Source of the DNA: Streptomyces sp. NBC_01408
Lineage (GTDB): Bacteria > Actinomycetota > Actinomycetes > Streptomycetales > Streptomycetaceae
Direction of reading: 5' to 3'
DNA length: 64,000 nt
NCBI RefSeq assembly: GCF_026340255.1
Contig: NZ_JAPEPJ010000001.1
Span: 3,651,001-3,715,000 of the forward strand
Below, piece by piece: positions 5,262 to 54,907 of the stretch; the first letter of the stretch is position 1; each line of letters begins with the position of its first letter. A program made the translations under genes and the position numbers. The notes below the pieces were generated by a model. The model made no database searches. It saw nothing but the letters and a program-made list of their open reading frames with translations, and was not told the DNA's origin.

Positions 5262-5815
5262 TGGCCCCCGGCGCGCGCCGCCGGTACGACCCCGAGCGGC
5301 GGCAGCGGATCATCGACGCGGCGATCCGGGTCGTGGGCGCCAAGGGCATCGCGGGGCTGAGCCACCGCAGCGCGGCCGCGGAGGCCGACGTACCGCTCGG
5401 GTCGACCACCTACCACTTCAAGACCCTCGACGATCTGCTCGTCGCGGCGCTGCACCAGGCCAACCAGGCTTTCGCGCAGGCCGTGGCCGCCTCGCCGGCC
5501 CTGGCCGATCCGGAGGCGGACCTGGCGGGGGCGCTGGCCCGGCTACTGGGCGAGTTCCTCGCCGGGGACCGGAGCCGGGTGGAGCTGGAGTACGAGCTCT
5601 ACCTCGCCGCTCTGCGCCGCCCCGCGCTGCGGCCGGTGGCGGCCCAGTGGTGCGAGGCCGTCTCCGAGGCGCTGACCCCGCGGACCGACCCGGTGACGGC
5701 GCGGGCGCTGGTGGCGGTCATGGACGGCATCAGCCTGCAGGTCCTGCTGACGGACGCCACGTACGACGAGCCGTACGCCCGCGAGGTCCTGGGCCGGGTG
5801 CTCCGCCGGACCTAG
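5261..5815 (+). CDS. TetR-family repressor of the SMR exporter
   Basis: The 184-residue protein has an N-terminal HTH (GLSHRSAAAEADVPLGSTTYHFKT, about residues 31-54) with the TetR signature TYHF, and a helical ligand-binding C-terminal domain. It is translationally coupled to the SMR gene (TGATG), so it probably represses that operon through the double palindrome at 4901-4942 and is released by exporter substrates. Its stop codon TAG is also the CTAG end of a family A repeat (5812-5879). Confidence 0.88.
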   Translation: MAPGARRRYDPERRQRIIDAAIRVVGAKGIAGLSHRSAAAEADVPLGSTTYHFKTLDDLLVAALHQANQAFAQAVAASPALADPEADLAGALARLLGEFLAGDRSRVELEYELYLAALRRPALRPVAAQWCEAVSEALTPRTDPVTARALVAVMDGISLQVLLTDATYDEPYAREVLGRVLRRT

Positions 5816-5879
5816 TGCTGTGGCCGGAAAGGTTTGCCGGGCGGCGCGACCCGGTGGACCTTTCCGGTCACAGCACTAG
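5812..5879. repeat. Family A inverted-repeat element, copy A1
   Basis: A 68-bp element with 22-bp inverted ends. The left end starts CTAGTGCTGTGGCCGG (5812) and the right end finishes at CTAG (5879), with one G/T mismatch between arms and a 24-base centre. Its first CTAG contains the TAG stop of the TetR gene. It lies between convergent genes and could form a large hairpin. Related copies are at 30693, 47475 and 54879. Confidence 0.85.
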
Positions 5880-5887
5880 GGGGTGTT

Positions 5888-5936
5888 CCAGCCCCGCCGG
5901 CGTTTGAGGCGCGGGGTCTGGGGCGGAGCCCCAGGG
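5888..5936. repeat. Family B GC-rich repeat, copy B1
   Basis: Contains CCCCGCCGGCGTTTGAGGCG followed by GGGGTCTGGGGCGGAGCCCC. It is one arm of a repeat found again at 36310, 39916 and 52469, and common in Streptomyces intergenic DNA. It lies directly beside copy A1 in the same convergent gap. Confidence 0.8.
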
Positions 5937-5957
5937 TCTTCCAGCCTGGCCGGTCCG

Positions 5958-6833
5958 TCAGGCGGCGCCGCGGACGGCAGTCAGGGCCGTGGCCACGCTC
6001 GCCTCGATGTCCCCGATCGGGTAGATCACCTCGCGGACCGTGCGGTCGCGGTCCAGTACCAGGGTCAGGCGCTTGATCCGGCTCACCCCCGCCGCCCGGA
6101 AGGTGGGCAGCCGCAGCGCCGCCGTCAGGGACAGGTCCGCGTCCGACAGGAGGGGGAAGCGCAGCCGTTCCTGCTCCGCGAACTCCCGCTGCTCGTCCGG
6201 CCGCTGGGTCGAGACCCCGTGCACCGCGGCCCCCGCCGCCGTGAACTGCGCGAGCTGGTCGCGGTACGTGCACGACTCCAGCGTGCAGCCCCTGGCGCCC
6301 GGGATCCCGGCCCAGTCCGGAGGGTAGGACTCGGCGCGGGCGTACGCGCCCGGGAAGCAGTACAGGACGGTGAAGGGCGTGTCCGCCACCGGGTCGCGGA
6401 GCTCGCCGAAACGGTCCGGCAGCAGCAGCTCCGGCAGCCGGGTGCCGCGCAGTGCGTGGCCCCGTTCCGCCTCCCGCGAGGCCTCTTCGGTCGTCGCCGT
6501 CATCTCTCCGTCTCCCAGGACCCAGGTGTCCCCCCAGTCCTGGAGGGCCACCAGGACCGGCAGCAGCGCCCGCCCGCGCGGGGTCAGCCGGTACTCGTGC
6601 CGCACCGGGCGTTCCTGGTACGGCTCGCGCGTCAGGACCCCGGCTTCCACCAGCAGCTTCAGCCGTTCGGCCAGCACCTTCCGGGACATGCCCAACTCGC
6701 GCTGGAGCTCGTCGAAACGGTGCAGGCCGCGCGCGGCGTCGCGCACGATCAGCAGCGTCCACCAGTCGCCCACGACGTCGAGGGCCTGCGCGATGGAGCA
6801 GTCGGCGTCGCCGAGGTGGGTGCGCTGGGCCAT
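5958..6833 (-). CDS. HxlR-type regulator fused to a PrxQ-like peroxiredoxin
   Basis: A 291-residue two-domain protein. Residues 1 to about 110 are an HxlR winged helix, with the family Cys near residue 12 (DADCSIAQAL) and MSRKVLAERLKLLVEAGVL as the recognition region. Residues about 130-290 are a peroxiredoxin-like domain with GCTLESCTYRD: Cys183 and Cys188 in the PrxQ/BCP spacing of peroxidatic and resolving Cys. It is divergent from an MFS exporter across a 25-bp palindrome. The layout suggests a DNA-binding protein that senses peroxide or thiol stress with its own peroxiredoxin module. The domains are read from sequence; the role is inferred. Confidence 0.85.
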   Translation of the reverse strand: MAQRTHLGDADCSIAQALDVVGDWWTLLIVRDAARGLHRFDELQRELGMSRKVLAERLKLLVEAGVLTREPYQERPVRHEYRLTPRGRALLPVLVALQDWGDTWVLGDGEMTATTEEASREAERGHALRGTRLPELLLPDRFGELRDPVADTPFTVLYCFPGAYARAESYPPDWAGIPGARGCTLESCTYRDQLAQFTAAGAAVHGVSTQRPDEQREFAEQERLRFPLLSDADLSLTAALRLPTFRAAGVSRIKRLTLVLDRDRTVREVIYPIGDIEASVATALTAVRGAA

Positions 6834-6876
6834 GGGAACTCCTTCGTCCGTTGACCCCAGGCTGCCATGCTGACAT

Positions 6877-6901
6877 AGTCCGTTCCCAAAGGGAACTGAC
6901 T
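6877..6901. promoter_or_regulatory. 25-bp palindromic operator between HxlR-Prx and MFS genes
   Basis: AGTC-C-GTTCCC-AAA-GGGAAC-T-GACT is palindromic except for one position per arm, and the inner 15 bp are perfect. It lies in the 75-bp divergent intergenic region, 8 bases before the MFS start, so a bound regulator would block expression of at least the exporter. The HxlR-Prx protein is the obvious candidate. Confidence 0.75.
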
Positions 6902-6908
6902 ACCGGAT

Positions 6909-8156
6909 GTGGGGGGCACGGGTGTGCTGCAGGGGTTCAAGGACGTACCGAGGGTCGTGTGGCTGCTGGCTGCGGGGATCTTCGTCAACACCGTCGCCAG
7001 TTTCACCGTCGTCTTCGTCTTCCTCTACCTGACCGGCCCGCGCGGCCTCGGCACCACCCAGGCGGGCCTGATCGTCGGCATCGGCGGCATCGGCCTGGTC
7101 GCCGGCAACTTCACCGGCGGCTGGTACGGCGACCGCTTCGGCCACCGCCGGGTGCTGCTCACTGCCTCGGCCCTCGGCGGATCCGCCCTCGTCGCCCTGC
7201 CGGCGGTCCCCACCATCCTGCTGGCCCTCCTCCTGCCGCTTGCCCAGTACGCCTCCGGGGTGATCCGCGCTGCCAACTCCGCGCTGGTCGCCGTCACCGT
7301 GCCGGAAGGTTCCCGCCGCCAGGCCTTCGCCGTCACCCGCTGCCTGTCCAACGGCGGCTTCGCGGTGGGCGGACCGCTCGGGGCCCTCATCGCGACCGGA
7401 CTCTCGTACGACTGGCTCTTCGTCGCGGACGGCATCGGCACCCTCTTCTTCGCCCTCTGGACCGCCCGGGTCGTCCCGGCCAGGGCCGCCACCGGCCCTT
7501 CCGCGGCCCCGGACGGGGGTCTGGGCCGCGGAGGGCTGTGGCGGGAGTTGCGTGCGCGGCCGGCGGTACTGGTCCTGCTCGGGGCGATCGTCGTCATCGA
7601 CATCGTCTACCGGCAGCACCTCACGACCTTCCCCGTCTACCTCGCCGACCACGGTCTGGACACCCGCGCGTACGGATGGCTCATCGCGGTCAACTGCGGC
7701 GTCATCCTGCTCCTGGAGATCCCCGCCGCCCTCGCCCTGCGCCGGCGCTCCCCGCTGCACGTCATCGGCAGCGGACTGGTTCTGGTGGGCAGCGGCTACG
7801 CGATGCTGATGCTCGGGGTCGGTACCGCAACAGCCGTCGCGATGATGCTGCTGCTCACCCTTGGCGAGATCCTCTACAAGACCACCGCCATGGCGTACGT
7901 CGCGGACGAGTCGCCCGAGCACGCCATCGGCCGCTTCCAGAGCCTGTACGCGGGTGTCTCCATCAGCGGCTTCGTCCTCGCCGCGCCCCTCGGCGGAGCC
8001 CTGTACGACAACGCGCCGGAACTGCTCTGGCCACTGTGCGCGGCACTCGGCGCGGCTGCCGGAGGGATCGTGCTGGTCGCGGGTGCGCGGGGAGTGCGGC
8101 GACCCGCGCGACCGTCACATGAGACCGGTTCGCAACCGAAGGCCGTCGCCGGTTAG
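6909..8156 (+). CDS. MFS exporter
   Basis: A 415-residue, 12-helix major facilitator protein. The loop GGWYGDRFGHRRVLL (near residue 75) is the conserved MFS motif between helices 2 and 3, and ALYDNAP near the end matches the drug-exporter group. The start is GTG at 6909, with GTG at 6924 as an alternative. It is divergent from the HxlR-Prx gene, whose palindrome lies just upstream, so it is probably an inducible efflux pump. The substrate is not readable. dapD follows after 9 bases on the same strand. Confidence 0.88.
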   Translation: MGGTGVLQGFKDVPRVVWLLAAGIFVNTVASFTVVFVFLYLTGPRGLGTTQAGLIVGIGGIGLVAGNFTGGWYGDRFGHRRVLLTASALGGSALVALPAVPTILLALLLPLAQYASGVIRAANSALVAVTVPEGSRRQAFAVTRCLSNGGFAVGGPLGALIATGLSYDWLFVADGIGTLFFALWTARVVPARAATGPSAAPDGGLGRGGLWRELRARPAVLVLLGAIVVIDIVYRQHLTTFPVYLADHGLDTRAYGWLIAVNCGVILLLEIPAALALRRRSPLHVIGSGLVLVGSGYAMLMLGVGTATAVAMMLLLTLGEILYKTTAMAYVADESPEHAIGRFQSLYAGVSISGFVLAAPLGGALYDNAPELLWPLCAALGAAAGGIVLVAGARGVRRPARPSHETGSQPKAVAG

Positions 8157-8165
8157 GTTTCAGAT

Positions 8166-9146
8166 ATGACTGCTACGCGTACCACCGGCGCCGTCGCCGC
8201 CGGACTTGCCACCATCACCGCCGACGGCACCGTCCTCGACACCTGGTTCCCCGCCCCCCAGCTCGTCGCCGAGCCCGGCCCGGCCGGCACCGAGCGCCTC
8301 ACCGCCGACCAGGCCGTGGAGCTGCTGGGCGCCGCCGCGCAGAAGGCGATCCGCTCGGACGCGGTGCGCGGCGTCGAGGTCGTAGCCGTCCGCACGGTGA
8401 TCTCCTCCCTCGAGGACAAGCCGCTGGACGCGCACGATGCGTACCTGCGCCTGCACCTGCTCAGCCACCGCCTGGTCAAGCCGCACGGCCAGAACCTCGA
8501 CGGGGTCTTCGGCCTGCTGGCCAACGTGGCGTGGACCTCGCTGGGCCCGGTCGCGGTCGACCAGGTCGAGACCGTCCGCCTGAACGCGCGCGCCGAGGGC
8601 CTGCACCTCCAGGTCACCTCGATCGACAAGTTCCCGCGGATGACGGACTACGTCGCCCCCAAGGGCGTGCGCATCGCCGACGCGGACCGCGTCCGCCTCG
8701 GCGCGCACCTCGCCGAGGGCACCACCGTCATGCACGAGGGCTTCGTCAACTTCAACGCCGGCACCCTCGGCACCTCCATGGTCGAGGGCCGCATCTCCGC
8801 GGGCGTCGTGGTCGGCGACGGCTCCGACATCGGCGGCGGCGCCTCCACCATGGGCACCCTGTCGGGCGGCGGCAAGCAGATCATCTCGATCGGCGAGCGC
8901 TGCCTGATCGGCGCCGAGGCGGGCGTCGGCATCGCGCTGGGCGACGAGTGCATCGTCGAGGCCGGCCTGTACGTGACCGCGGGCACCCGCGTCACCCTGC
9001 CGGACGGCCAGATCGTCAAGGCCCTGGAGCTCTCCGGCGCCGGCAACATCCTCTTCCGCCGCAACTCGGTCACCGGCGCCGTCGAGGCCCGCCCGAACAA
9101 TGCGGTCTGGGGCGGCCTGAACGAGGTCCTCCACAGCCACAACTGA
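8166..9146 (+). CDS. dapD: DapD, tetrahydrodipicolinate N-succinyltransferase
   Basis: DapD adds a succinyl group to tetrahydrodipicolinate in the succinylase branch of lysine and diaminopimelate synthesis. The 326-residue product matches the long actinobacterial form: an N-terminal alpha/beta domain, then a left-handed beta-helix of hexapeptide-like repeats ([26 protein letters not shown] through [18 protein letters not shown]). The start is ATG 8166. A 16-bp hairpin terminator follows 22 bases after the stop. It may also receive read-through from the MFS gene. Confidence 0.95.
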
Positions 9147-9168
9147 CCCCCGCGGTCCGGCTGCCACA

Positions 9169-9206
9169 GCGCCCTCCCGCCCCGGACGAACGGGGCGGGA
9201 GGGCGC
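9169..9206 (+). terminator. Terminator after dapD
   Basis: Perfect 16-bp stem (GCGCCCTCCCGCCCCG at 9169-9184 with its complement at 9191-9206) around a 6-base loop, just after the dapD stop. Confidence 0.88.
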
Positions 9207-9306
9207 TCACCGTGCTGATGACGCCTGCTCCCGTTCGCGACGGAAATGGTCCCGGACATCGCATTCGGAAAAGACGTCCACGGTGAATGGTCGGTGGAGC
9301 GGCTCG

Positions 9307-9336
9307 GGCGGGAGGGCGATCGGCCGCCCTCCCGCC
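9307..9336 (-). terminator. Hairpin downstream of the 58-aa Cys/His protein gene
   Basis: Perfect 12-bp stem GGCGGGAGGGCG (9307-9318) with its complement at 9325-9336 and a 6-base loop. It lies 59 bases beyond the stop of the leftward small gene at 9396, and shares the GCGGGAGGGC core with the dapD terminator. Confidence 0.65.
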
Positions 9337-9395
9337 GCGTCCGGGGCAGGAGGGCGTACATCGGCTGGCCAAGCCGGCCGTGCCGGCCGTACCGT

Positions 9396-9572
9396 CTAGG
9401 ACTTCTTGCGCAGGGCGCGGAGCCTGGCCTGGGCGGCCTTCTTCTGTTCCCTGGCCATGCCGTAAGCGGTCCACTTGCCCCGGTGCTGGTAGCAGCGGGA
9501 GTGGCCCACCATCGCGGGGTTGCGGCAGTGGCCGCTGGGCTCGAGCGGTGCCCCGCACTTCGGCTGTGTCAT
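9396..9572 (-). CDS. Small Cys/His protein, possible zinc knuckle
   Basis: A 58-residue basic protein. Its N-terminal half has C6-x9-C16-x10-C27-x2-H30 (KCGAPLEPSGHCRNP, then GHSRCYQH), a spacing seen in small actinobacterial and phage proteins thought to bind zinc. The C-terminal half is Lys/Arg-rich and helical (MAREQKKAAQARLRALRKKS), suggesting nucleic-acid contact. ATG 9572 was chosen because upstream sequence is low-complexity Arg/Pro. Function unknown. Confidence 0.7.
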   Translation of the reverse strand: MTQPKCGAPLEPSGHCRNPAMVGHSRCYQHRGKWTAYGMAREQKKAAQARLRALRKKS

Positions 9573-9685
9573 GGTCGTGCCCCCTCGACGGGCCCTCGGG
9601 CGGGGCCCCGGTCCACCCTGGAGGAGGGCGGGGCGGGCGCGGGAGGCGCGGCGAGGTGGTGCCGGGGGCACGGCCCGCGCGCGGG

Positions 9686-9940
9686 TCAGCGCAGGGGGAG
9701 GGTGCGGATCACTTCGGCGAAGGCCTGCTGCTCCGCCTCGGTCAGCTCCACCGTCTCCATCGGGTGGGCGGCGGCTCCGCGCTGGCCCGGGATCACCGGC
9801 AGCCCCTCGACGGCGGCTGGCTCCGGGTGGTGGAAGCGGCTGTCCCACAGCTTGTGGCCGAGGCCGACGAACCAGACGAGAGCGGCCACGAGTAGGACGG
9901 CGAGGCCGATTTCCTGGGCGAGGGAGATGGAGGGGAACAT
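9686..9940 (-). CDS. Small single-pass membrane protein
   Basis: An 84-residue protein with one N-terminal transmembrane segment (EIGLAVLLVAALVWFVGLGHKLW, about residues 9-31) and a cytoplasmic tail ending EAEQQAFAEVIRTLPLR. The ATG at 9940 is preferred to one 57 bases upstream because GGAGG lies 5 bases before it. No family is recognised. It stands alone between two other leftward genes. Confidence 0.6.
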   Translation of the reverse strand: MFPSISLAQEIGLAVLLVAALVWFVGLGHKLWDSRFHHPEPAAVEGLPVIPGQRGAAAHPMETVELTEAEQQAFAEVIRTLPLR

Positions 9941-10086
9941 CCGGTCCTCCGGGGTTGCGGACGGTACAAGCCGGGGCAAGATCGGGCGTGCAGACACTCA
10001 ACACCACAACCGGCCGATTCGGCAGGGATGTGGCGAGCCTCACGCCAGGGCCGAAAGTCCCGACCTTGGCCCGAGGGGACCGCGGG

Positions 10087-10542
10087 TCACGGCTCCAGGA
10101 GGAGCTTGAAGCCCTCGTGGCTGCGCGCGAAGCCCAGGCGTTCGTAGAAGCGGTGTGCGGCCGTGCGCCGCTTGTTGCTGGTGAGCTGGACCAGGCCGCA
10201 GCCGCGCTTCCGGGCCCGTTCGACGGCCAGCTCCATCAGCTCCGCGCCCAGCCCGCCGCCCCGCCGGTCCGCGCGGATCCGTACCGCCTCCACCAGCGCC
10301 CGCTCCTGGCCGCCCTGCCCCAGGCCCGGTATGTACGTCAGCTGGAGGCAGCCCAGGACCACCTCGTCCGCGTCGTCCGTCAGGACCAGCATCTCGTTGC
10401 GGGCGTCCGCCCCGATGGCGGCGAAGGCCCGCTCGTGCGCCTCTCCGACGACGACCGAGGCCGGGTCCACGACCCGGTCCTCGTCGGCCAGCAGGGCGAG
10501 CACGGCCGGCAGGTCCGCGCGCGTGGCGGTACGGAAGATCAT
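10087..10542 (-). CDS. GNAT-family N-acetyltransferase
   Basis: A 151-residue GCN5-type acetyltransferase that would move an acetyl group from acetyl-CoA to an amine. The acetyl-CoA-binding motif is visible as VRIRADRRGGGLGAELMELAVERA (about residues 86-109), and the C-terminal strand region reads HRFYERLGFARSHEGFKL. Start ATG 10542. The substrate cannot be deduced. Its promoter must lie in the short gap holding the hairpin of the next leftward gene. Confidence 0.88.
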   Translation of the reverse strand: MIFRTATRADLPAVLALLADEDRVVDPASVVVGEAHERAFAAIGADARNEMLVLTDDADEVVLGCLQLTYIPGLGQGGQERALVEAVRIRADRRGGGLGAELMELAVERARKRGCGLVQLTSNKRRTAAHRFYERLGFARSHEGFKLLLEP

Positions 10543-10558
10543 GGCCAGGAGTGTGGCA

Positions 10559-10590
10559 GGGGGCCCGGCCGGGACGGCGGCCGGGCCCCC
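10559..10590 (-). terminator. Terminator of the secreted nuclease gene
   Basis: Perfect 13-bp stem GGGGGCCCGGCCG with its complement (10559-10571 and 10578-10590) and a 6-base loop, 13 bases past the stop of the leftward nuclease gene. Confidence 0.85.
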
Positions 10591-10603
10591 TGCGGCCTTG
10601 GAA

Positions 10604-29565: not shown

Positions 29566-30687
29566 ATGAGCGATGTGAGCGACGGGACCGGCGTGAGCGG
29601 CGTGAGCGACGTGCTGCACGTGAAGGGGCGGGTGCTGGTCGGGCCCGACGAGGTCCGCGACGAACTCTGGGTGGTCGGCGGGCGGATCTCCTACGAGCGC
29701 CCGCCCACCGCCCGCGACGTCACCACGGTAACCGGCTGGGCGCTGCCCGGCCTGGTCGACGCGCACTGCCACGTGGGCCTGGACTCCCACGGCCCGGTCG
29801 ACGCCGGGACCGCCGAGCGGCAGGCCCTCGCCGACCGCGACGCGGGCACCCTCCTCATCCGCGACGCGGGATCCCCCTCCGACACCCGGTGGATCGACGA
29901 CCGCGAGGACCTCCCGAAGATCATCCGGGCCGGCCGGCACATCGCCCGCACCCGGCGCTACATCCGCAACTACGCGCACGAGATCGAGCCCGCCGACCTC
30001 GTCGCGTACGTCGGCCGCGAGGCCCGGCGCGGCGACGGCTGGGTGAAGCTGGTGGGGGACTGGATCGACCGCGAGGTGGGCGACCTGACGGCCTGCTGGC
30101 CGCGCGCCGAGGTCGAGGCTGCCATCGCCGAGGCCCACCGGCTGGGCGCCAGGGTCACCGCGCACTGCTTCTCCGAGGACTCGCTGCGCGACCTGGTCGA
30201 GGCGGGCATCGACTGCATCGAGCACGCCACCGGGCTCACCGAGGAGGCCATCCCGCTGTTCGCGGAGCGCGGGGTCGCCATCGTTCCGACGCTGGTGAAC
30301 ACCGCGACCTTCCCCACGCTGGCGGCGTCCGGCGAGGGGAAGTTCCCGAAGTGGTCGGCGCACATGCGAAGGCTCCACGAGCGGCGCTACGACACCGTCC
30401 GGGCGGCCCACGACGCGGGCATCGCGGTGTACGTCGGCACCGACGCGGGCGGCTCCCTGCCGCACGGCCTGGTCGCGGCGGAGGTCGCGGAGCTGGTGAA
30501 GGCCGGGATCCCGCCGCTGGACGCCCTGTCGGCGACGGCCTGGGCGGCCCGCGCCTGGCTGGGCCGGCCCGGGCTGACCGAGGGGGCACCGGCGGACCTC
30601 GTGGTCTACGGGGCCGATCCGCGGGCCGACGTACGGGCGCTCGCGCAGCCGCTCCGGGTCGTCGTGAACGGCGCCGTCCGGGCCTGA
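29566..30687 (+). CDS. Metal-dependent amidohydrolase
   Basis: A 373-residue amidohydrolase of the imidazolonepropionase/prolidase-like superfamily group. The metal-binding pattern is visible: HCHVGLD (the HxH region, after GLVDA), Lys in GDGWVKLVGDW, H in TAHCFSEDS, H in CIEHATGL, and Asp in YVGTDAGGSLPHG. The first 15 residues are a Gly/Ser/Val repeat (VSDGTGVSGVSDV), probably unstructured. It is divergent from an aminotransferase and may share a catabolic role with it. The substrate is unknown. A family A repeat begins 6 bases after its stop. Confidence 0.85.
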   Translation: MSDVSDGTGVSGVSDVLHVKGRVLVGPDEVRDELWVVGGRISYERPPTARDVTTVTGWALPGLVDAHCHVGLDSHGPVDAGTAERQALADRDAGTLLIRDAGSPSDTRWIDDREDLPKIIRAGRHIARTRRYIRNYAHEIEPADLVAYVGREARRGDGWVKLVGDWIDREVGDLTACWPRAEVEAAIAEAHRLGARVTAHCFSEDSLRDLVEAGIDCIEHATGLTEEAIPLFAERGVAIVPTLVNTATFPTLAASGEGKFPKWSAHMRRLHERRYDTVRAAHDAGIAVYVGTDAGGSLPHGLVAAEVAELVKAGIPPLDALSATAWAARAWLGRPGLTEGAPADLVVYGADPRADVRALAQPLRVVVNGAVRA

Positions 30688-30692: not shown

Positions 30693-30733
30693 CTAGTGCT
30701 GTGGCCGGCAAACCTTTCCGGCCACACCACTAG
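30693..30733. repeat. Family A inverted-repeat element, copy A2 (compact)
   Basis: A 41-bp version with both CTAG ends and 16-bp arms (CTAGTGCTGTGGCCGG at left), but almost no centre. The left inner AAAGGT is missing. It lies 5 bases beyond the amidohydrolase stop. The remaining 287 bases up to the next start hold no gene I can support, only a small CACCCC-TT-GGGGTG hairpin at 30881-30894. Confidence 0.8.
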
Positions 30734-35699: not shown

Positions 35700-37148
35700 T
35701 CACGGCCGGTCCGCCGCCGCTGCCACGAACCGGAGGGCGACGGAAGGCTCCGCAGCCCAGTGCGTGTGCAGGTAGCTGGCGTGCACACCCTGCTGTACGA
35801 AGCCCTCGACGCGCCGCTCGGGATGCGTGAAGCCCCAGGCCGGCGCGGCCCCCGCGCCCGGCTCGATCACCGTCCGGTGGAACTCGTGCCCGCGCAGCCG
35901 GGTCCCGGCCGCCGCGAGCGTGCTGTCGGACACCGCCACCGCCTCGCGGTAGCCCAGCGTGAGGCGCTCCGACATCCGCGCGTCGGCGTCCAGCACCCCG
36001 CACATCGGCTTCCCGTCCAGCGACTGCGCGAGGTACAGCAGCCCTGCGCATTCGGCGGCCACGGGGGCGCCCTGCGCGGCGAAGCGGGCCACGGCCTTGC
36101 GCAGCGGCTCGTTGGCCGACAGCTCGGGCGCGTACACCTCGGGGAACCCGCCGCCGATCACCAGGCCGGCGGCTCCCTCGGGGAGCGCCTCGTCCCGGAG
36201 CGGGTCGAAGGTGACGACGTCCGCCCCTGCGGCTTGCAGCAGCTCGGCGTGCTCGGCGTACGAGAACGTGAACGCGGCCCCGCCTGCGACGGCGACGACC
36301 GGTCGTGCACCGGGGCTCCGCCCCGGACCCCGCGCCTCAAACGCCGGCGGGGCTGGATTCGGCTGACGCAGTCCGCCTGGATGGACGTTGCCGCGCAGCG
36401 GCACTTCCAGAGCCTCTTGCGGAGACCAGGCTTCGCAAGACAATGCCGGGGCCGTCCGGGCCAAGGCCATCAGGGCGTCCAGGTCGCACCCCGCCCGGAC
36501 CTGCTCCGCCAGCGCGGCAACCGCGGCGAGCGCGTCCGACCGCCGCTCGGCGACCGGCACCAGCCCCAGGTGCCGCGAGGGCGCGGCCACCTGCGGAGCC
36601 CGCCGCAGGACGCCGAGCACCGGCATCCCCGCCTCCTCCAGCGCCTCGCGAAGCATCGTCTCGTGCCGGTCGGAGCCGACCTTGTTCAGGATCACGCCCC
36701 CCAGCCGCACCTGCGGGTCGAAGGAGGCGAAGCCGTGCACCAGCGCCGCCACCGACCGCGACTGCGAGGAGGCGTCGACCACCAGCACCACCGGCGCCCG
36801 CAGCAGCTTTGCGACGTGCGCGGTCGAAGCGAGCTCGCCCCGCCCGGCGGCCCCGTCGTAGAGCCCCATCACGCCCTCGACCACGGCGAGGTCGCACCCG
36901 GCCGCCCCGTGCGCGAACAGCGGGGCGACCAGCTCCGGCCCGCACATGAAGGCGTCGAGGTTGCGCCCCGGGCGGCCGGTGGCCAGCGCGTGGTAGCCGG
37001 GGTCGATGTAGTCGGGCCCGGCCTTGTGCGGGGACACGGCGAGGCCGCGCTCCGCGAAGGCCGCCATCAGGCCCGTCGCGACGGTCGTCTTGCCGCTGCC
37101 GGACGAGGGCGCGGTGACGACCAGCCGCGGGATGTGGAGCGAGGTCAC
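35700..37148 (-). CDS. cobB: CobB, (hydrogeno)cobyrinic acid a,c-diamide synthase, with an in-frame repeat
   Basis: A 482-residue ATP-dependent amidotransferase that amidates the a and c side chains of the corrin ring. The N-terminal dethiobiotin-synthetase-like domain starts VVTAPSSGSGKTTVATGL with DYIDPGYH and VVEGVMGLYDG. The C-terminal glutaminase domain has AAECAGLLYL (nucleophile Cys) and GHEFHRT. Between them, residues about 262-280 (QPNPAPPAFEARGPGRSPGA) come from family B repeat DNA inserted in frame (36310-36360). The GTG start overlaps the cobO stop by 4 bases. The insert sits in the interdomain linker, so the enzyme may stay active. Confidence 0.88.
   Translation of the reverse strand: MTSLHIPRLVVTAPSSGSGKTTVATGLMAAFAERGLAVSPHKAGPDYIDPGYHALATGRPGRNLDAFMCGPELVAPLFAHGAAGCDLAVVEGVMGLYDGAAGRGELASTAHVAKLLRAPVVLVVDASSQSRSVAALVHGFASFDPQVRLGGVILNKVGSDRHETMLREALEEAGMPVLGVLRRAPQVAAPSRHLGLVPVAERRSDALAAVAALAEQVRAGCDLDALMALARTAPALSCEAWSPQEALEVPLRGNVHPGGLRQPNPAPPAFEARGPGRSPGARPVVAVAGGAAFTFSYAEHAELLQAAGADVVTFDPLRDEALPEGAAGLVIGGGFPEVYAPELSANEPLRKAVARFAAQGAPVAAECAGLLYLAQSLDGKPMCGVLDADARMSERLTLGYREAVAVSDSTLAAAGTRLRGHEFHRTVIEPGAGAAPAWGFTHPERRVEGFVQQGVHASYLHTHWAAEPSVALRFVAAAADRP
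36310..36360. repeat. Family B repeat inside cobB, copy B2
   Basis: CCGGGGCTCCGCCCCGGACC, then CCGCGCCTCAAACGCCGGCG and GGGCTGGATT: the same sequence as the intergenic copies at 39916 and 52469, but here within the cobB reading frame and without a stop. Confidence 0.88.
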
Positions 37149-39915: not shown

Positions 39916-39965
39916 CCTGGGGCTCCGCCCCGGACCCCGCGCCTCAAACGGCGGCGGGGCTGGAT
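39916..39965. repeat. Family B repeat upstream of the chelatase gene, copy B3
   Basis: The same core as the other B copies with one change (AAACGGCGGCGG). A decayed reverse arm follows at about 39988-40030, and a small perfect palindrome GGATTGC-GCA-GCAATCC lies between at 39976-39992. Confidence 0.8.
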
Positions 39966-40042
39966 CTGTGCGGCCGGATTGCGCAGCAATCCCAGCCCGC
40001 GCGGCGTTTGAGCGCACGGGCGCGAAGCGCACGTATGGGGGT

Positions 40043-42675: not shown

Positions 42676-42721
42676 GGTGGCAGGTATGTCCTCACTCAGG
42701 GTCCGCGCCCTGGTTCGACGT

Positions 42722-42870
42722 GACGGGCGGCGAGAGTTCCTGGCTCCCGGGACGCGCGTGGTGCGTGCTCCCCGGTGACAGTGGCGGGACCGCGCCGGAT
42801 TCGCACCGGACTTCCTCTCCATGCCGCCGTACTGGCGTGGGCAGTCCACCACGCAGCGCGAATGCCCGTC
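42722..42870 (-). promoter_or_regulatory. Cobalamin (B12) riboswitch controlling cbiB-cobQ
   Basis: Read on the minus strand, it has the conserved aptamer core GGAAGTCCGGTGCGAATCCG (from 42815), then GCGCGGTCCCGCCACTGTCA, and a B12-box-like GAGCCAGGAACTCTCGCC at 42746-42729. It lies 47 bases before the cbiB start. A small AGGGC/GCCCT-type hairpin near 42698-42714 may link ligand binding to access to the ribosome-binding site. Exact ends are approximate. Confidence 0.88.
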
Positions 42871-46074: not shown

Positions 46075-47478
46075 GTGACGTCCCGAAAGCCTGATGAGCA
46101 GTTGGCTCGCGACTCCAGACTCCGCCTCGTCTCCCCGCGTTCCGTCGCCACGGCCCGCAAGGCGGTGACCGACCGGCGCACCCGGACGGCCCCGCGGCCT
46201 CCGGCGGGCACGCCCGCCACGGCCGACCTCGCGAACCGGGCCCGCGCCTCGCTGGCCGACGCCGTACGCCTGACCCGCTGGGCCGAGCTCCACCTCGGCG
46301 CCGGAGACGGCGGCCGGCCCGCACCGACGGGCGCCCTGCCCGCCGAGGACGTCGAACGGGCCGCCGCGGAACTCCACCTGACGCACGGCCAGATCATGGT
46401 CGGCTGGGACCGCGCCCGGCTCGCCGGACTCGTCGAGGTGCACGGCGGGCATGCCCGGCCCGGCTGGCGGCTGCGCGCCTGGGACCGCGACGACGCCGCC
46501 GTACTGCGCGGCTGGGTCGCCCTCTTCGACGCCTGGTCGCTGGTCCACCCGGCCCCCGCCGACATCGCCCCCTCGGCCGTCGCCGAGGTGGTCGAGGCCA
46601 TGCCCCAGCTGCTCTCCCTGCTCCAGCTGTCGGCCGGGCCCGTGACCGTCCCCGACCTGCTCGACCTGCTCGGACAGCGGGTCACCGAACTGCGCGACGA
46701 ACGGTGCGAGATCCCCTACGACGCGGCGCCGCTGCCCGCGCTCGACGCACCCCCCGTCCCGCTCGCCCGCCTGCTGCGCTGGGCCCTCGGCGGACTCGCC
46801 GCCGTGGACGCCGTCACCCTCGGCCCCGCCCAGGCCGCCCTCACCCCGCTGGGCAGCTGGGCCGTCTGGGTCAAGCTGGAGCAGATCTGCGTCGCCGCGC
46901 AGAGCACCGCCGGGAACATCGAGCAGTCCGCCGCCGCCATGCTGCACGGCTGCGCCCGGCTCACCCCGGGCCCGGCCCGCGCCGAGTACCGGGCCTGGCT
47001 CGCCGCCCGGCCCGTCGGCCACGCCGTCAGCGAGCTGCTGCACGCCGCCCGGGGCGAGGACGCCCTGTTGCGCGGCCTGGCCTTCGAGGCCCTGCGCGTG
47101 GTCGGCGCCCCCGCCGAGCCCGAGGTGCGCGCGGCCGTGCGCGAGCCCGCCCTGCGCCCCTACGCCCTGCTCTGGCTCGCCGAGCACGACGGGGTCGACC
47201 CCGACGAGGCCCAGGACGTCCTCACCGCCGAGGAGCAGACCTGGCTCTGGGTGGACACCGCCGCAGCCATCGCCGACCACGGCGAGGCCGAGCTGCTGGC
47301 CCGCCACCTGGACTCGGCCGTGCGGACCACCGTCCCCCGGCTGCTGGACGAGGTCCGGGCGGTCGGCCACCCGCGCACCGTGCAGGTCCTGGTCGCACTG
47401 GCCGCGGCCCACCCCGACCCGGCCCTGGCCAAGGCCGTCCGCCGGGCTGCCTTCCAGGTCCACACCGGGGGCGTCTAG
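46075..47478 (+). CDS. Conserved 467-aa protein of unknown function (paralogue of 12829-14355)
   Basis: A helical, Ala/Leu-rich soluble protein, 467 residues from GTG 46075. The first 60 residues are basic (VTSRKPDEQLARDSRLRLVS). The core shares with the 508-aa protein an early RLTRWAE element, a central LTPLGSWAVWVKLEQ, and a C-terminal run AFEALRVVGAPAEPEVRAAV, LWLAEHDGVDP, WLWVDTAAAIADHGE, ending in a basic helix. No domain with a known function is recognisable. Its TAG stop lies inside the CTAG end of family A copy A3. Confidence 0.72.
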   Translation: MTSRKPDEQLARDSRLRLVSPRSVATARKAVTDRRTRTAPRPPAGTPATADLANRARASLADAVRLTRWAELHLGAGDGGRPAPTGALPAEDVERAAAELHLTHGQIMVGWDRARLAGLVEVHGGHARPGWRLRAWDRDDAAVLRGWVALFDAWSLVHPAPADIAPSAVAEVVEAMPQLLSLLQLSAGPVTVPDLLDLLGQRVTELRDERCEIPYDAAPLPALDAPPVPLARLLRWALGGLAAVDAVTLGPAQAALTPLGSWAVWVKLEQICVAAQSTAGNIEQSAAAMLHGCARLTPGPARAEYRAWLAARPVGHAVSELLHAARGEDALLRGLAFEALRVVGAPAEPEVRAAVREPALRPYALLWLAEHDGVDPDEAQDVLTAEEQTWLWVDTAAAIADHGEAELLARHLDSAVRTTVPRLLDEVRAVGHPRTVQVLVALAAAHPDPALAKAVRRAAFQVHTGGV

Positions 47479-47639
47479 TGCTGTGACCGGAAAGGTCCAC
47501 CGGGTCGCGCCGCCCGGTACGGCGCCTCGCCGCGTTGTCGGACCGCGCCGGTACGTCCAGTACGAGCCGCGGCCCTCCGCCTTGCGATGCACCGCACCGG
47601 ACGACGCGACCCGGCAGACCTTTCCGGCCACAGCACTAG
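47475..47639. repeat. Family A inverted-repeat element, copy A3 (long)
   Basis: A 165-bp copy with 22-bp ends that match except for one base, flanked by CTAG on both sides. Sub-terminal CCGGGTCGCG and CGCGACCCGG extend the pairing. The centre has no transposase frame. It starts on the TAG stop of the 467-aa gene and lies between convergent genes. Confidence 0.87.
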
Positions 47640-47737
47640 GCGAGTAGGTCCGAGGTGGTGCACGGTCCGGAGGTACGGGAGCCCGCACGGTCACCCGTAC
47701 GGGCTCCCGTACCGCCGGACCCGGTACGGCTCGCGCC

Positions 47738-49265: not shown

Positions 49266-49272
49266 GTCTGTC

Positions 49273-49296: not shown

Positions 49297-49356
49297 CGGC
49301 GTCGAAGCTCGCGTCCTGCCCCCCTTCCGCCGTACCCACCGCCCTGGAGTATTTCC

Positions 49357-50955
<1,599 letters not shown>

Positions 50956-50984
50956 CCCGTCCCGGCGGGGTGATCCAGTTCCTT

Positions 50985-51013
50985 ATGGATCATTCGGCTC
51001 AGACGTGATCCAT
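50985..51013. promoter_or_regulatory. GATC-containing inverted repeat between abc-f and gbn
   Basis: ATGGATCA (50985-50992) and TGATCCAT (51006-51013) form a perfect 8-bp inverted repeat with a 13-base centre, each arm holding one GATC. Further GATC sites are at 50972 and 51267. Gbn, encoded just downstream, is a GATC-binding protein, so autoregulation is plausible. The rest of this 353-bp gap holds the ABC-F terminator and no other gene. Confidence 0.5.
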
Positions 51014-51052
51014 CATCTGAGTGAGACGGTCTCGTACCGTTGCACGCTGTAC

Positions 51053-51097
51053 GACGGCCCCGGCCGCGCCCGCGAGGGCGCGCGACCGGGGCCCGTC
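51053..51097 (+). terminator. Terminator after the ABC-F gene
   Basis: GACGGCCCCGGCCGCGCC pairs with GGCGCGCGACCGGGGCCCGTC, a roughly 18-bp stem with small bulges and a 6-base loop, in the gap after the ABC-F gene. Confidence 0.75.
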
Positions 51098-51308
51098 CGT
51101 TTCCGGCGTCCGGCCCCTGACCTGCCGATTCCCTGCGGGGGCGGGGGAGTGTGACGGAGGTCATGCAGCGGAAGAGAAGATTCCGTTCTGCTCGCGCGTC
51201 CACCCGTCGGGAAATGCGGTTGCACCGACCTTGCTGAATGGGTGGCCAGGAAGCGTGGGAGGGGTGATCATGAGAAGTCCAGAGCGCACTTCCCATGAGG
51301 AGGCACGG

Positions 51309-51530
51309 GTGGCCGAGACTCTGAAGAAGGGCAGCCGGGTAACCGGCGCCGCGCGCGACAAGCTCGCGGCAGACCTGAAGAAGAAGTACGACTCCGGTGC
51401 GAGTATCCGGGCGCTGGCCGAAGAGACCGGCCGGTCCTACGGATTCGTCCACCGGATGCTCAGTGAGTCCGGGGTTTCGTTGCGCGGCCGAGGTGGCGCG
51501 ACGCGTGGCAAGAAGGCGGCTGCGGCCTGA
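51309..51530 (+). CDS. gbn: Gbn, GATC-binding nucleoid-associated protein
   Basis: A 73-residue basic protein, VAETLKKGSRVTGAARDKLA followed by ADLKKKYDSGASIRALAEET and a HTH ending GRSYGFVHRMLSESG, then an Arg/Gly/Lys tail. It closely matches the small Streptomyces-specific protein described as Gbn (SCO1839 in S. coelicolor), which binds many GATC-containing sites across the chromosome and affects development. GTG 51309 has GAGGAGG 7 bases upstream, supporting this start over longer frames. The adjacent ABC-F and enoyl-CoA hydratase genes fit the S. coelicolor gene order as I recall it. Confidence 0.85.
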   Translation: MAETLKKGSRVTGAARDKLAADLKKKYDSGASIRALAEETGRSYGFVHRMLSESGVSLRGRGGATRGKKAAAA

Positions 51531-51672
51531 CCCTGGTCCAACCGTTCCAATGGCTTCACCTGTTCCAACGGTTCCTTCGGTGACCCCCGGTCGGCCCTGA
51601 GGTCGGCTGGGTGGTTACTGTGCAGTCACTTAAGGCCGAGTCCACGGCCGATTGCACACCGGAGGCATACAG

Positions 51673-52452
51673 ATGGCTCTGCTCGACAAGGACGGCGTAC
51701 GGCTCACCGTCGACGACACGGTCGCCACGGTGACACTGACCAATCCGGCCAAGCGAAACGCTCAATCCCCTGCGCTCTGGCGGGCTTTGGCGGAGGCCGG
51801 AAGGTTGTTGCCGGGCACCGTCCGGGTCGTGGTGCTGCGCGGCGAGGGCAAATCCTTCTCCGCGGGGCTGGACCGGCAGGCATTCACCCCCGAAGGCTTC
51901 GAGGGCGAGCCGTCCTTCCTCGACCTGGCGCGCGGTTCGGACGAGCTGCTCGACTCCACCATCGCCGAATACCAGGAGGCATTCACCTGGTGGCGGCGCA
52001 ATGACATCATCTCCGTCGCCGCCGTGCAGGGGCACGCCATCGGTGCCGGCTTCCAGCTCGCGCTCGCCTGCGACCTGCGCGTGGTCGCGGACGACGTGCA
52101 GTTCGCCATGCGCGAGACCAGCCTGGGCCTGGTCCCCGACCTGACCGGCACCCAGCCCCTGACCTCCCTGGTCGGCTACGCCCGCGCGCTGGAGATCTGC
52201 GCGACGGGCCGCTTCGTGCACGCCGAGGAGGCCGAGCGCGTCGGCCTCGCCAACCTCGTGGTCCCGGTGGACGAGCTCGACGCCGCCGTCCAGGACCTCA
52301 CCACCGCGCTGCTGGCTCCGCCGCGGGATGCCGTGACCGAGACCAAGGCACTGCTGCGCGGCGCGGGCTCCCGCCCGTACGACGAGCAGCGCGCCGCCGA
52401 GCGCGCGGCCCAGGCGCGCCGTCTGCGCGACCTGGCCGGCCTCTCGGACTGA
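51673..52452 (+). CDS. Enoyl-CoA hydratase/isomerase family protein
   Basis: A 259-residue crotonase-fold enzyme. The oxyanion-hole regions are GKSFSAGLDRQAF and AVQGHAIGAGFQLALACDLR, and the active-site segment is MRETSLGLVPDLTGTQPL. The second catalytic Glu of classic hydratases seems to be replaced by Asp in LVPDLTG, so the reaction may differ. ATG 51673 has GGAGG upstream. It probably acts on an acyl-CoA of unknown type and is followed by a long family B palindrome. Confidence 0.87.
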   Translation: MALLDKDGVRLTVDDTVATVTLTNPAKRNAQSPALWRALAEAGRLLPGTVRVVVLRGEGKSFSAGLDRQAFTPEGFEGEPSFLDLARGSDELLDSTIAEYQEAFTWWRRNDIISVAAVQGHAIGAGFQLALACDLRVVADDVQFAMRETSLGLVPDLTGTQPLTSLVGYARALEICATGRFVHAEEAERVGLANLVVPVDELDAAVQDLTTALLAPPRDAVTETKALLRGAGSRPYDEQRAAERAAQARRLRDLAGLSD

Positions 52453-52468
52453 CCTGCGGCCCGCCTTC

Positions 52469-52586
52469 CTGGGGCTCAGCCCCGGACCCCGCGCCTCAAA
52501 CGCCGGCGGGGCTGGATTCCGGCTGATGCCGTCTGCCAAATCCAGCCCCGCCGGCGTTTGAGGCGCGGGTCCGGGCGGAGCCCGGG
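52469..52586. repeat. Complete family B palindrome, copy B4
   Basis: Two nearly perfect inverted arms of about 40 bp: CCCCGGACCCCGCGCCTCAA onwards (52480-52518), and AATCCAGCCCCGCCGGCGTT onwards (52539-52577), around a 20-base centre. This is the only full two-armed copy in the window and shows that B1-B3 are single arms. It follows the enoyl-CoA hydratase gene and may act as its terminator. Confidence 0.88.
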
Positions 52587-52687
52587 AACCGAACCCATTC
52601 CGGCCGACCGGCGTAGTCCCGGGGCGGGGGCGGCCTCGCGCGCTTACCGTGGTGCGGAGTGAGTCCGCACGCGCGAAGGGACAAGCG

Positions 52688-53119
52688 ATGACCGAATCCG
52701 CATCGGGCAGCCACGGCAAGGCCCCCGCCGACCGGGGCCGCACGACCATCGCCGACGGGGTGGTCGAGAAGATCGCCGGGCTGGCCGCCCGCGAGGTCGT
52801 GGGCGTGCACGCCATGGGCAGCGGCAGCGGCCTCTCCCGTACCTTCGGGGCCGTCCGCGACCGGGTCCCCGGGGCCCAGCGGGCCTCCGTCAGCCGCGGG
52901 GTCAAGGCCGAGGTCGGCGAGGTCCAGACCGCCCTCGACCTGGAGATCGTCGTCGAGTACGGCGTGTCGATCCGCGAGGTCGCGCGGGCGGTCCGTGAGA
53001 ACGTCATCTCGGCCGTGGAGCGGATGACCGGCCTGGAGGTCGTCGAGGTCAACATCGCGGTCAGCGACGTGAAGCTGCCCGACGAGGAGGACGAGGAGCC
53101 GGAGTCCCGGCTCCAGTAA
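52688..53119 (+). CDS. Asp23/Gls24 envelope-stress protein 1
   Basis: A 143-residue cytoplasmic protein of the Asp23/Gls24 family: TTIADGVVEKIAGLAAREVVGVHAMGSG, VKAEVGEVQTALDLEIVVEYGVSI and VVEVNIAVSDVKLP. Asp23 proteins line the inside of the membrane through AmaP and take part in cell-envelope stress. It is the first gene of a five-gene operon (to 54882) that ends with amaP. ATG 52688 has GAAGGGA upstream. Confidence 0.9.
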   Translation: MTESASGSHGKAPADRGRTTIADGVVEKIAGLAAREVVGVHAMGSGSGLSRTFGAVRDRVPGAQRASVSRGVKAEVGEVQTALDLEIVVEYGVSIREVARAVRENVISAVERMTGLEVVEVNIAVSDVKLPDEEDEEPESRLQ

Positions 53120-53134
53120 CCGGGAGGAGCCCGG

Positions 53135-53356
53135 ATGAGCATGGCGGTCGTCGGCCTGTTGGCCGGCATGGCACTGGGGTTCGCCGGGTACTTCGGCGGC
53201 TTCGGGGCCTTCCTGCTGGTGGCGGCGCTCGGCGCCGTCGGCTTCGTCGTCGGCCGGGTGCTCGACGGGGACCTGGCACCGGGCGATCTGCTGCGGCCCC
53301 GTGACCGGGGCGACCGTGGTGACCGTGGTGACCGCGGCGACCGGCGCCCCCGATGA
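53135..53356 (+). CDS. Small membrane protein of the Asp23 operon
   Basis: A 73-residue protein with two hydrophobic helices (MAVVGLLAGMALGFAGYFGG and AFLLVAALGAVGFVVGRVLDG), resembling the DUF2273-like proteins common in Asp23 operons. The hydrophilic tail is a GDR repeat from five 9-bp units (53303-53347). Its stop overlaps the start of the next gene (ATGA). It probably anchors or organises the complex at the membrane. Confidence 0.82.
   Translation: MSMAVVGLLAGMALGFAGYFGGFGAFLLVAALGAVGFVVGRVLDGDLAPGDLLRPRDRGDRGDRGDRGDRRPR
53303..53347 (+). repeat. 9-bp coding tandem repeat (Asp-Arg-Gly)
   Basis: Five units of GACCGTGGT or close variants encode the repeated Asp-Arg-Gly tail of the small membrane protein. 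Confidence 0.85.
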
Positions 53357-53730
53357 CCACACCACGGGCCACCACACCCCGGTCCACACCGCCCAAGGTG
53401 CCCGCCGCCGACCGGGGGGCCACCCGCATCGCCGACCGGGTCGTCGCCAAGATCGCGGCCCAGGCCGCCCGGGAGGCGCTCACCGTCGAGCCGGGCGGGA
53501 TCCCGCACGCCACCGTCACCGTGCACCACGACATCGCACGCGTACGGATCAGCCTGGAGCTCGCCTACCCCTCCGACCTCGCCGCCCAGTGCGCCGCCGT
53601 ACGCCGCCAGGTCGCCCTGCGCATCGAGGAGTGCGCGTCCATGACGGTGCCCGAGGTGGACATCGACATCGAGCACCTGCACTCCGGGCCCGCGCGGTCC
53701 GCCGTCGGCCGGGACCGGCGGCTGCGGTGA
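53353..53730 (+). CDS. Asp23/Gls24 family protein 2
   Basis: A 125-residue second Asp23-like protein: TRIADRVVAKIAAQAAREAL, VTVHHDIARVRISLELAYPSDLA and MTVPEVDIDIEHLH. It differs from the first copy by a Pro/Thr-rich head and a basic tail. Both ends overlap neighbours by 4 bases, so it is translated in strict coupling. It may form mixed assemblies with protein 1. Confidence 0.85.
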   Translation: MTTPRATTPRSTPPKVPAADRGATRIADRVVAKIAAQAAREALTVEPGGIPHATVTVHHDIARVRISLELAYPSDLAAQCAAVRRQVALRIEECASMTVPEVDIDIEHLHSGPARSAVGRDRRLR

Positions 53731-54311
53731 CGGCCCCCGGCCCCCCGCCGCCGGCCCGGCGGGCGCACCGGTTCCGCTCCGCCCGGCGGATCCCCGCCGC
53801 ACTCACCGCCCTCCTCCTGCTGGCGGCGGCGGGCCTCTTCCTCTACGACCTGGCCGCCGTACGGGCCGACCGCCCCGGCATGAGCTGGCGCCGCGAACTC
53901 GCCGGGCAACTGGACCGGCACACCCCCGCCGACCTGCCGGTGCTCGTCGGCGGCGGGGTCCTCGCCGCGGCCGGGGCGGTGCTCCTGCTGCTGGCCCTCG
54001 CCCCGGGGGTCCGCGGCATCCTGCCCATGCGGACCCCGGACCAGGGCGCGGACCTGCGGGCCGGGCTCGGGCGCAAAGCCGCCGCGCAGGTGCTGCGGGA
54101 CCGGGCCATGGAGGTGTCGGGGGTGCGGACGGTACGGGTCACCGTGGGCCGGGCCCACGTCCGGGTGCGGGCCACCTCGCACTTCCGCGAGCTCGACGAC
54201 GTACGGGCCGACCTGGACGCGGTGCTCGCGGTCGGCATCGAGGAACTGGGCCTCGCCCACCCGCCGCGGCCACGCGTACGGGTCAGCCGGGCCGCCGACG
54301 CGAAGGGATGA
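53727..54311 (+). CDS. Membrane protein of the Asp23 operon (DUF6286-like)
   Basis: A 194-residue protein with two transmembrane helices (IPAALTALLLLAAAGLFLYDL and LPVLVGGGVLAAAGAVLLLLALAPG), then a cytoplasmic domain with VSGVRTVRVTVGRAHVRVRATSHFRELDDV. The two-helix plus small alpha/beta tail layout matches DUF6286 proteins that accompany AmaP in actinobacteria. GTG 53727 overlaps the previous stop. Function unknown, probably structural. Confidence 0.82.
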   Translation: MTAPGPPPPARRAHRFRSARRIPAALTALLLLAAAGLFLYDLAAVRADRPGMSWRRELAGQLDRHTPADLPVLVGGGVLAAAGAVLLLLALAPGVRGILPMRTPDQGADLRAGLGRKAAAQVLRDRAMEVSGVRTVRVTVGRAHVRVRATSHFRELDDVRADLDAVLAVGIEELGLAHPPRPRVRVSRAADAKG

Positions 54312-54315
54312 CGCG

Positions 54316-54882
54316 GTGACGGGAACGCTCGGAGCGGTGAACCGGATCCTGCTGGCGCTGGCCGGCCTGGTCCTGCTGGCGGCCGGGCTCTCGGTGCTCA
54401 CGGCCTCGTGGCCGCTCGGCGGCCGGCACGAACCGCTGCTGACGGCGCAGACCCGGAGCCGGTACTGGCACGCCGACGGCTGGGGCTGGTGGGCCCTGCT
54501 CGCCGGGCTCGCCCTGTGCGTACTGCTGGCCCTGTGGTGGCTGCTGTCCCAGCTGAGGCGGCCGAGGCTGGCCGCGGTGCTCGTGGACACCGGGGACGGT
54601 GCCTTCGCCCTGCTGCGCGGGCGGGCGCTGGAGGAGGCGGTGGCCGCGGAGGCCGGAGCCCTGGACGGGGTGGCCGGCTGCCGGGTCGCGCTGCGCGGCA
54701 AGCGGGGGGCGCCCGCGCTGCGGATCGCGCTGGAGCTGGAACCGTACGCCGTGCCGGCCGACGCCCTGGCCGGGCTGGCGGGCCCGGTCCTGACCCACGC
54801 CCGCAGCTCGGCGGGCCTCCCCGGACTCCCCACGGAGGCCCGCCTGCGCGTCGCTTCCCACCGCGCGCAGCGGGTTACCTAG
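54316..54882 (+). CDS. amaP: AmaP-like membrane anchor of Asp23
   Basis: A 188-residue protein with two transmembrane helices (ILLALAGLVLLAAGLSVLTA and WWALLAGLALCVLLALWWLL) and a cytoplasmic AmaP-type domain (VDTGDGAFALLRGRALEEAV, LDGVAGCRVALRGKRGAPAL). In Firmicutes AmaP anchors Asp23 to the membrane, and the same is expected here as last gene of the operon. Start GTG 54316. The TAG stop lies in the CTAG of family A copy A4. Confidence 0.85.
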   Translation: MTGTLGAVNRILLALAGLVLLAAGLSVLTASWPLGGRHEPLLTAQTRSRYWHADGWGWWALLAGLALCVLLALWWLLSQLRRPRLAAVLVDTGDGAFALLRGRALEEAVAAEAGALDGVAGCRVALRGKRGAPALRIALELEPYAVPADALAGLAGPVLTHARSSAGLPGLPTEARLRVASHRAQRVT

Positions 54883-54907
54883 TGCTGTGACCGCAAAGGT
54901 TTGCCGG
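54879..54907. repeat. Family A element, single end (copy A4)
   Basis: Only the left end is present: CTAGTGCTGTGACCGC and then AAAGGTTTGCCGG. No matching right end occurs before the next gene. The CTAG again contains the TAG stop of the upstream gene. Confidence 0.8.

Follow-up and report, generated by a model that had tools for sequence, protein, structure and literature searches.

Probable MITE-like elements with IS630-type ends at stop codons in Streptomyces and their core folding on one strand

Introduction

Insertion sequences (IS) of the IS630 family duplicate the dinucleotide TA (PMC2170065), and a preference of IS630 for the TA in CTAG is stated in the title of the 1991 work by Tenzen and Ohtsubo, given in the reference list of the same paper. 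Here, short hairpin elements bounded by CTAG were analyzed in a 64,000-nt stretch of Streptomyces sp. NBC_01408 (NZ_JAPEPJ010000001.1, positions 3,651,001-3,715,000, forward strand), hereafter called the window, and were followed into other genomes. It was concluded that they are likely to be elements resembling miniature inverted-repeat transposable elements (MITEs), which have IS630 ends, insert silently into TA at stop codons and carry a core, conserved on one strand, as their lasting unit. In the probable TA duplication, and in the CTAG preference described for IS630, they are like IS630 of Shigella sonnei and ISY100, as far as the accessible text describes these (PMC2170065), whereas the latter are autonomous and come from other phyla.

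Three further groups of described systems are close. The RUP repeat of Streptococcus pneumoniae is also short and non-autonomous, has ends matching IS630-Spn1 and inserts at TA (PMC2229807, PMC3049150); in contrast, it is 107 bp long with one end type, and the available parts of these papers mention neither a core shared with other transposon ends nor a stop-codon niche, the comparison being by description only. TnRErm46/ISRe46 of Rhodococcus equi targets CTAG and gives some target genes their TAG stop (PMC6794481), and is thus, from the available part of its report, a published precedent for the idea of insertion at stop codons. Unlike our elements, it is described there as a composite transposon of the IS481 family with NCTAGN direct repeats and no folded core. 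Correia/NEMIS, ERIC and BOX are likewise small folded bacterial repeats, with TA at the termini of Correia and ERIC; they were set apart by description only, the accessible descriptions giving no core common to many end types.

Family-A Copies and Their IS630-Type Parent

The end motif CTAGTGCTGTGRCCGG, allowing up to three mismatches, matched the window eight times against a mean of 1.64 expected, and none of 100 shuffled sequences gave eight matches. Seven of these were ends already given in an earlier note on this DNA, and the eighth, at 4457, was probably due to chance. The note had described four copies with a common end, three with CTAG at both inverted ends and a fourth that was one-ended. 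This description was confirmed: CTAG stood on both sides of A1 (5812-5879), A2 (30693-30733) and A3 (47475-47639), and A4, starting at 54879, was one-ended. The TAG stops that the note had placed inside the first CTAG of A1, A3 and A4 were found in frame, and A2 began five bases past a stop, as it had said (Table 1). The names that it gave to the upstream genes stood in part: TetR was supported by Pfam, and "AmaP" and "467 aa" remained unverified, the proteins upstream of A3 and A4 having no Pfam match.

Copies elsewhere were sought by the pattern with the flanks left free. At least 120 loci were found among the matches listed, nearly all titled Streptomyces, the others including Streptosporangium, Yinghuangia and Streptacidiphilus; the exact end was present in 45 of 150 genomes. 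A loose setting gave 148 single ends or pairs, of which 77 were two-ended. Measured from CTAG to CTAG, the two-ended copies had a modal inner length of 160 or 157 nt, and 60-nt forms like A1 were also present. The family-A elements were short and carried no transposase gene, in agreement with the non-autonomous element proposed in the note and with the description of a MITE.

The same ends, 1.7 kb apart, bracketed an IS630-family transposase in locus L004. The protein encoded at 2953-4056 of this locus scored 166.7 bits against NF033545 (cut-off 100) and 51.9 bits against DDE_3. The cleanest complete elements, L223:1431-2671 and L225:1434-2676, had CTAGTGCTGTGACCGG at both ends, and their transposases were assigned to the family by an identity of 87% and 85%, respectively, to that of L004; the frame in L225 appears interrupted near its end. 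The terminal repeats of family A matched the ends of these three IS630 elements.

Some related arrangements were also observed. An IS630-type element of a further genome, G042 (L323:1431-2930), had a right end nearer to the MITE end than to the usual IS end and is a possible step between the parent IS and the MITE. An IS630-like element of a related subfamily (L233:1409-2644) had CTAGTGCCGGATCAGGCAACG ends and a transposase 42% identical to that of L004. Two elements of the same length with TGCCGTGACCGGCAACGTTTGCCC ends and identical end and flank stretches (L072:5713-5871 and 6012-6170) looked like a tandem duplication including the flanks.

Target Site and Empty Sites in Relatives

Eleven occupied sites, four from the window and seven from named genomes, were compared with relatives. 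At 8 of the 11, the homologous stop in at least one relative was formed by a single CTAG: L129 (A1), L156 (A3), L183 (A4), L299 (L002), L294, L272, L273 and L295 (L006), L256, L270 and L274 (L014), L288 and L290 (L080), and L255 and L262 (L119). In the clearest cases, L014 against L256 or L270 and L006 against L294, the two flanks matched up to the CTAG. The sole witness for A4, L183, was doubtful because TGC followed its CTAG, as in an element end. Several further relatives had GTAG, GTGA, CTGA or GTAA at the homologous stop and no element. This comparison of occupied and empty sites, which the earlier note had called for, supported CTAG as the target and insertion at stops with the protein unchanged; the rarity of CTAG that it had assumed was borne out by a density of 0.18 per kb in the searched loci, elements excluded. 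Judging by L294, one end of L006 appears to have become CCAG through a later change.

Some stops were occupied more than once. The A3 stop was hit separately by a family-A copy in the opposite orientation in L152, the middle of which reads N, and by a copy of a second family, B, in L151; copies that may or may not be separate insertions were also found at the same stops as L119 (L283, L286) and L006 (L293, L276). L151, which holds an element, was rejected as the empty site of A3, and L156 took its place.

A 6-bp NCTAGN repeat, as in IS481 elements, was rejected since the flanks of A1-A3 did not match. The duplication of 4-bp CTAG proposed in the note is less likely than that of TA. IS630 duplicates TA, and family-B flanks read TTAG/TTAG or GTAG/CTAG (L374, L334, L367), which are not 4-bp direct repeats; the outer base of family-B ends was C in 47 (CTAG), T in 6 (TTAG) and G in 3 (GTAG). 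Such variation would fit TA as the repeated unit, unless the base was changed later. The note had further linked the copies to an element of the IS701 type that would duplicate the 4-bp CTAG, and CTAG did occur on both sides of 44 of the 77 paired copies; 15 of the other 33 were one transition in TA away from it. However, the transposase between the matching ends was of the IS630 family in L004, with close relatives in L223 and L225, neither Pfam nor NCBIfam listed an IS701 match of the L004 protein at E ≤ 0.001, and the family-B flanks again disagreed. An IS701 parent was therefore rejected, and this explanation is regarded as very improbable.

Insertion at Stop Codons

Genes were called with our own codon-based script, and 63 of 215 ends were the exact stop of a predicted gene. 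At least one end was a stop in 46 of 76 two-ended copies, compared with 31 of the 157 non-coding CTAGs that lay outside elements. Stratification within loci gave an odds ratio of 2.9 (p = 0.00075), with 40 observed against 29.0 expected in 79 loci, so that the link of copies to stops, once counted, held. The note had regarded stops written C-TAG as among the few available targets; CTAG was rare and about 20-43% of non-coding CTAGs were stops, but insertion at stop codons exceeded the supply of targets, and supply alone is insufficient. Stops at both ends, as found in L119, fit two convergent genes that formerly ended in a single common CTAG.

An ordinary IS630 MITE was considered as well, in which the stop excess would reflect target supply and purifying selection, and the fold would be a founder accident inherited by all copies. 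Such an element would be consistent with the proportion of non-coding CTAGs that are stops anyway (31/157 to 16/37, the latter in G042), with the finding of only 6 of 64 copies between divergent genes and with the strand-symmetric rare changes described below. The excess within loci is not accounted for in this way, and a single founder accident does not predict a core kept across many end types with compensatory changes; we consider this explanation rather unlikely.

The host might also retain the hairpins because they end transcription in both directions where convergent genes meet. Both neighbors were called for 64 two-ended copies, and 28 of these lay between genes pointing at them; the hairpins were very stable, with z-scores of -10.9, -6.5 and -11.3 for A1, A2 and A3. 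Yet no T-run as in an intrinsic terminator was found beside the hairpin on either side in A1-A3, convergent sites are also those at which an insertion would do no harm, stops were carried equally by both ends, and a two-way terminator has no need of pairing on one strand. A role in termination was thus judged to be improbable.

A Common Core Within Many End Types

A generic scan for further CTAG-bounded hairpins gave one, L304, which led to family B, as did the A3 site in G010, which is Streptomyces xanthophaeus going by its locus. The ends of this family were GGCCGTCTCTTTCGGATCTTG, and a stop was found at one end or both in 25 of 29 two-ended copies, five of these having it at both. Families A and B had the inner ~105 nt in common and differed in their ends. 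About ten end types, labeled by us, framed this core in the fetched loci, with 50 copies for A, 22 for B, 21 for F, 5 for C, 3 each for D, E and H, 2 for G and 1 each for J and K; the counts depend on how the loci were fetched. The core-bearing elements were mostly 159-175 nt long and flanked by TA, where the flank counts are biased by a boundary search that rewards TA. From 125 cores, 11 were set aside as poorly flanked or false and 3 as "other"; among those set aside, 6807-6968 of L066 was a real family-A copy dropped by its locus name, and in L401, L465, L461 and perhaps also L460 a copy of type F or B seems to have been given the wrong boundaries.

A first core model was built from 44 cores. 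With up to 31 candidates scored per genome, it matched (E ≤ 1e-4) in 98 of the 121 genomes taken from the Streptomyces group of G010, and with up to 19 scored, in 35 of 197 genomes of the class, Streptomyces included, some of these genomes being of 3 to 5 Mb. Ten loci of the class survey were inspected, and several had further ends and other apical loops with the same GCAAGGCGGAG-like internal loop; the core was not visible in one of the ten, L505. In L500, L501 and L503, for example, the apical loop varied (GTACTGGACGTAC, GATAGCAGCGCTATC, CGTGGCGGAGCCACG) and the internal loop was constant. The constancy of this loop suggests a site of contact with a protein or RNA. The elements had no match at the Rfam gathering score; the window gave only a cobalamin riboswitch elsewhere, and microRNA matches were below the cut-off. 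Neither the core nor the six searched sequences were found printed in the open-access literature, and the elements were not found described there; one Streptomyces paper among the hits turned out merely to cite a fungal element.

The ends were compared with those of IS elements carrying PF13340 (IS5-type) in 30 loci, allowing up to five mismatches and with no shuffled control. Both ends were close to type B in one element only, L488 866-1767, and single ends similar to non-A types were found in L467, L469, L476, L478, L481, L483 and L489. One end type is IS630-like, and the IS5-type elements whose ends several others may resemble also sit at CTAG.

Fold, Covariation and Strand

The core alignment (named A4, not to be confused with copy A4) was made from 24 of the 26 cores selected; L035 and L355 were excluded as partly non-homologous. 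Across the ten end types, 97.4% of the cells were paired and 21 of 40 pairs were changed on both sides. The covariation score was 0.334 against 0.136 ± 0.009 after shuffling, a value reached in none of 500 shuffles. For families A and B together, 26 of 37 pairs covaried, again with 0 of 500 shuffles.

The fold was conserved on one strand. The paired strand formed 40 pairs at -71.4 kcal/mol, and the opposite strand 23 pairs at -26.0 kcal/mol, the latter folding worse because G.U becomes A.C there. On the paired strand, 158 cells were G.U and 5 were A.C, the structure having been chosen on this strand and so being in its favor. RNAalifold gave -106.5 for 44 family-A copies against -47.5 on the other strand, and 79 of 81 oriented family-A copies agreed in strand. 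With the IS630 ends as an outgroup, both A-to-G and C-to-T changes were seen on the paired strand; a single strand-biased type of mutation is therefore not enough.

It was also considered that the unit works as folded single-stranded DNA and that the strand bias comes from DNA recombination, by analogy with integron attC sites and REP hairpins. Conservation of the fold on one strand would suit this too, and G.T is better tolerated than A.C in single-stranded DNA as well. Against it, the matching transposases are of the DDE type, and ISY100, of the IS630 family, cleaves the double strand at its ends, according to the accessible text of PMC2170065. This explanation is regarded as unlikely.

Features of the Window

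The coordinates are collected in Table 1. Another palindromic repeat, TCCAGCCCCGCCGGCGTTTGAGGCGCGGGG..., was noted at 5887-5935, 36312-36360, 39919-39967 and 52471-52569, one of these being an inverted pair; it adjoins A1 and has matches in many searched relatives. The cobalamin riboswitch lies at 42712-42861 on the minus strand (Rfam RF00174, 40.5 bits). Directly after A3, at 47663-47722, a palindrome GTACGGGAGCCCG...CGGGCTCCCGTAC gave a weak core-model match (E 0.014) and is possibly the terminator of the convergent genes.

Table 1. Family-A copies in the window and the genes that end in them.
Feature	Position	Strand	Description
A1	5813..5878	.	62-nt short derivative, 5815-5876; TA at 5813-5814 and 5877-5878; in-frame TAG 5813-5815 closes TetR-like gene
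A2	30694..30732	.	35-nt palindromic derivative, 30696-30730, TA-flanked; CTAG starts 5 bases past TGA stop at 30685-30687
A3	47476..47638	-	full-length 159-nt element, 47478-47636; TA at 47476-47477 and 47637-47638; in-frame TAG 47476-47478 closes upstream gene
A3 folded core	47501..47613	-	model R1: 112.2 bits on this strand, 37.7 on the opposite; R1 alignment contains A3
A4	54880..54907	+	one-ended remnant; in-frame TAG 54880-54882 closes upstream gene
TetR-like gene, ends in A1	5261..5815	+	Pfam supports TetR
Gene ending in A3	46102..47478	+	start uncertain (45964 or 46102); protein without Pfam match
Gene ending in A4	54316..54882	+	protein without Pfam match

Proposed Mechanism and Significance

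We proposed that an IS630 (Tc1/mariner-type) transposase moves the copies in trans, by cut and paste, into TA and chiefly into the TA of CTAG, with TA as the probable duplicated unit of family A. The element would start with G, or with A in another family, so that TA followed by this base remakes TAG or TAA. An insertion into the TA of either stop would thereby be silent for the protein, which may be the reason why it is tolerated. Stops written C-TAG would offer a target that is both commonly available and tolerated, and the nesting at stop codons would follow from TA insertion together with a purine at the end of the element. The full-length form, as A3, would consist of short terminal repeats for the transposase and the ~105-nt core with its fold conserved on one strand. 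What lasts may be the core and not the ends: a module folded as RNA or as a single strand of DNA, which has served under several transposases in turn.

A stronger form of this proposal is held only tentatively: the core would be a structured RNA or folded single strand of DNA, selfish or functional, that outlives its ends, was mobilized in turn by transposases of the IS630 and IS5 types, always into TA, and prefers the stops that its first base repairs. The confidence in it was lowered by the gradation among the end types: a start like GGNNNTGT is common to C, D, G, H, J and K, of which some are only 4 of 15 letters apart, and A, B and F are far apart as clear extremes.

Several observations weigh against the proposed mechanism or its stronger form. 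The graded ends may have drifted and not been swapped, and the resemblance to IS5-type elements rests on one IS with both ends, in a comparison with no shuffled control. The structures were predicted from the very alignments tested, and covariation at the DNA level is also possible in long inverted repeats. The orientation of family A was set by three positions, and these are among those at which the arms differ. Among its pair changes, 15 led from Watson-Crick to G.U and 13 to A.C, and after removal of three frequent G.U these became 12 and 13; the rare changes are thus symmetric, and no selection is visible on individual inserted copies. It seems that any constraint acts on the source copies and not on each insertion. 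The gene-calling script is unvalidated. In 20 stretches of G042, picked by the exact CTAG end, 12 of 18 copies compared with 16 of 37 CTAGs showed the same lean towards stops, which was not significant (p = 0.15). The stops were not biased towards one end (26 against 21), so that orientation offers no hint of a role as RNA at the 3' ends of genes. A single-CTAG relative was not found for A2, L057 and L064, and family A alone cannot separate TA from CTAG duplication.

A TA target combined with a purine at the end of the element would make stop codons a safe harbor for mobile DNA. A covariance model is now given for an abundant actinobacterial hairpin for which Rfam gave no match, and it raises the concrete question of what recognizes the conserved GCAAGGCGGAG/GACAACGC internal loop. 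If the core is indeed an RNA selected on one strand, a structured molecule would move between unrelated transposases. The classification of bacterial MITEs, made today by their ends, would then change, and the core would represent a structured module that is mobile and has its fold, instead of its transposase, as the defining feature.

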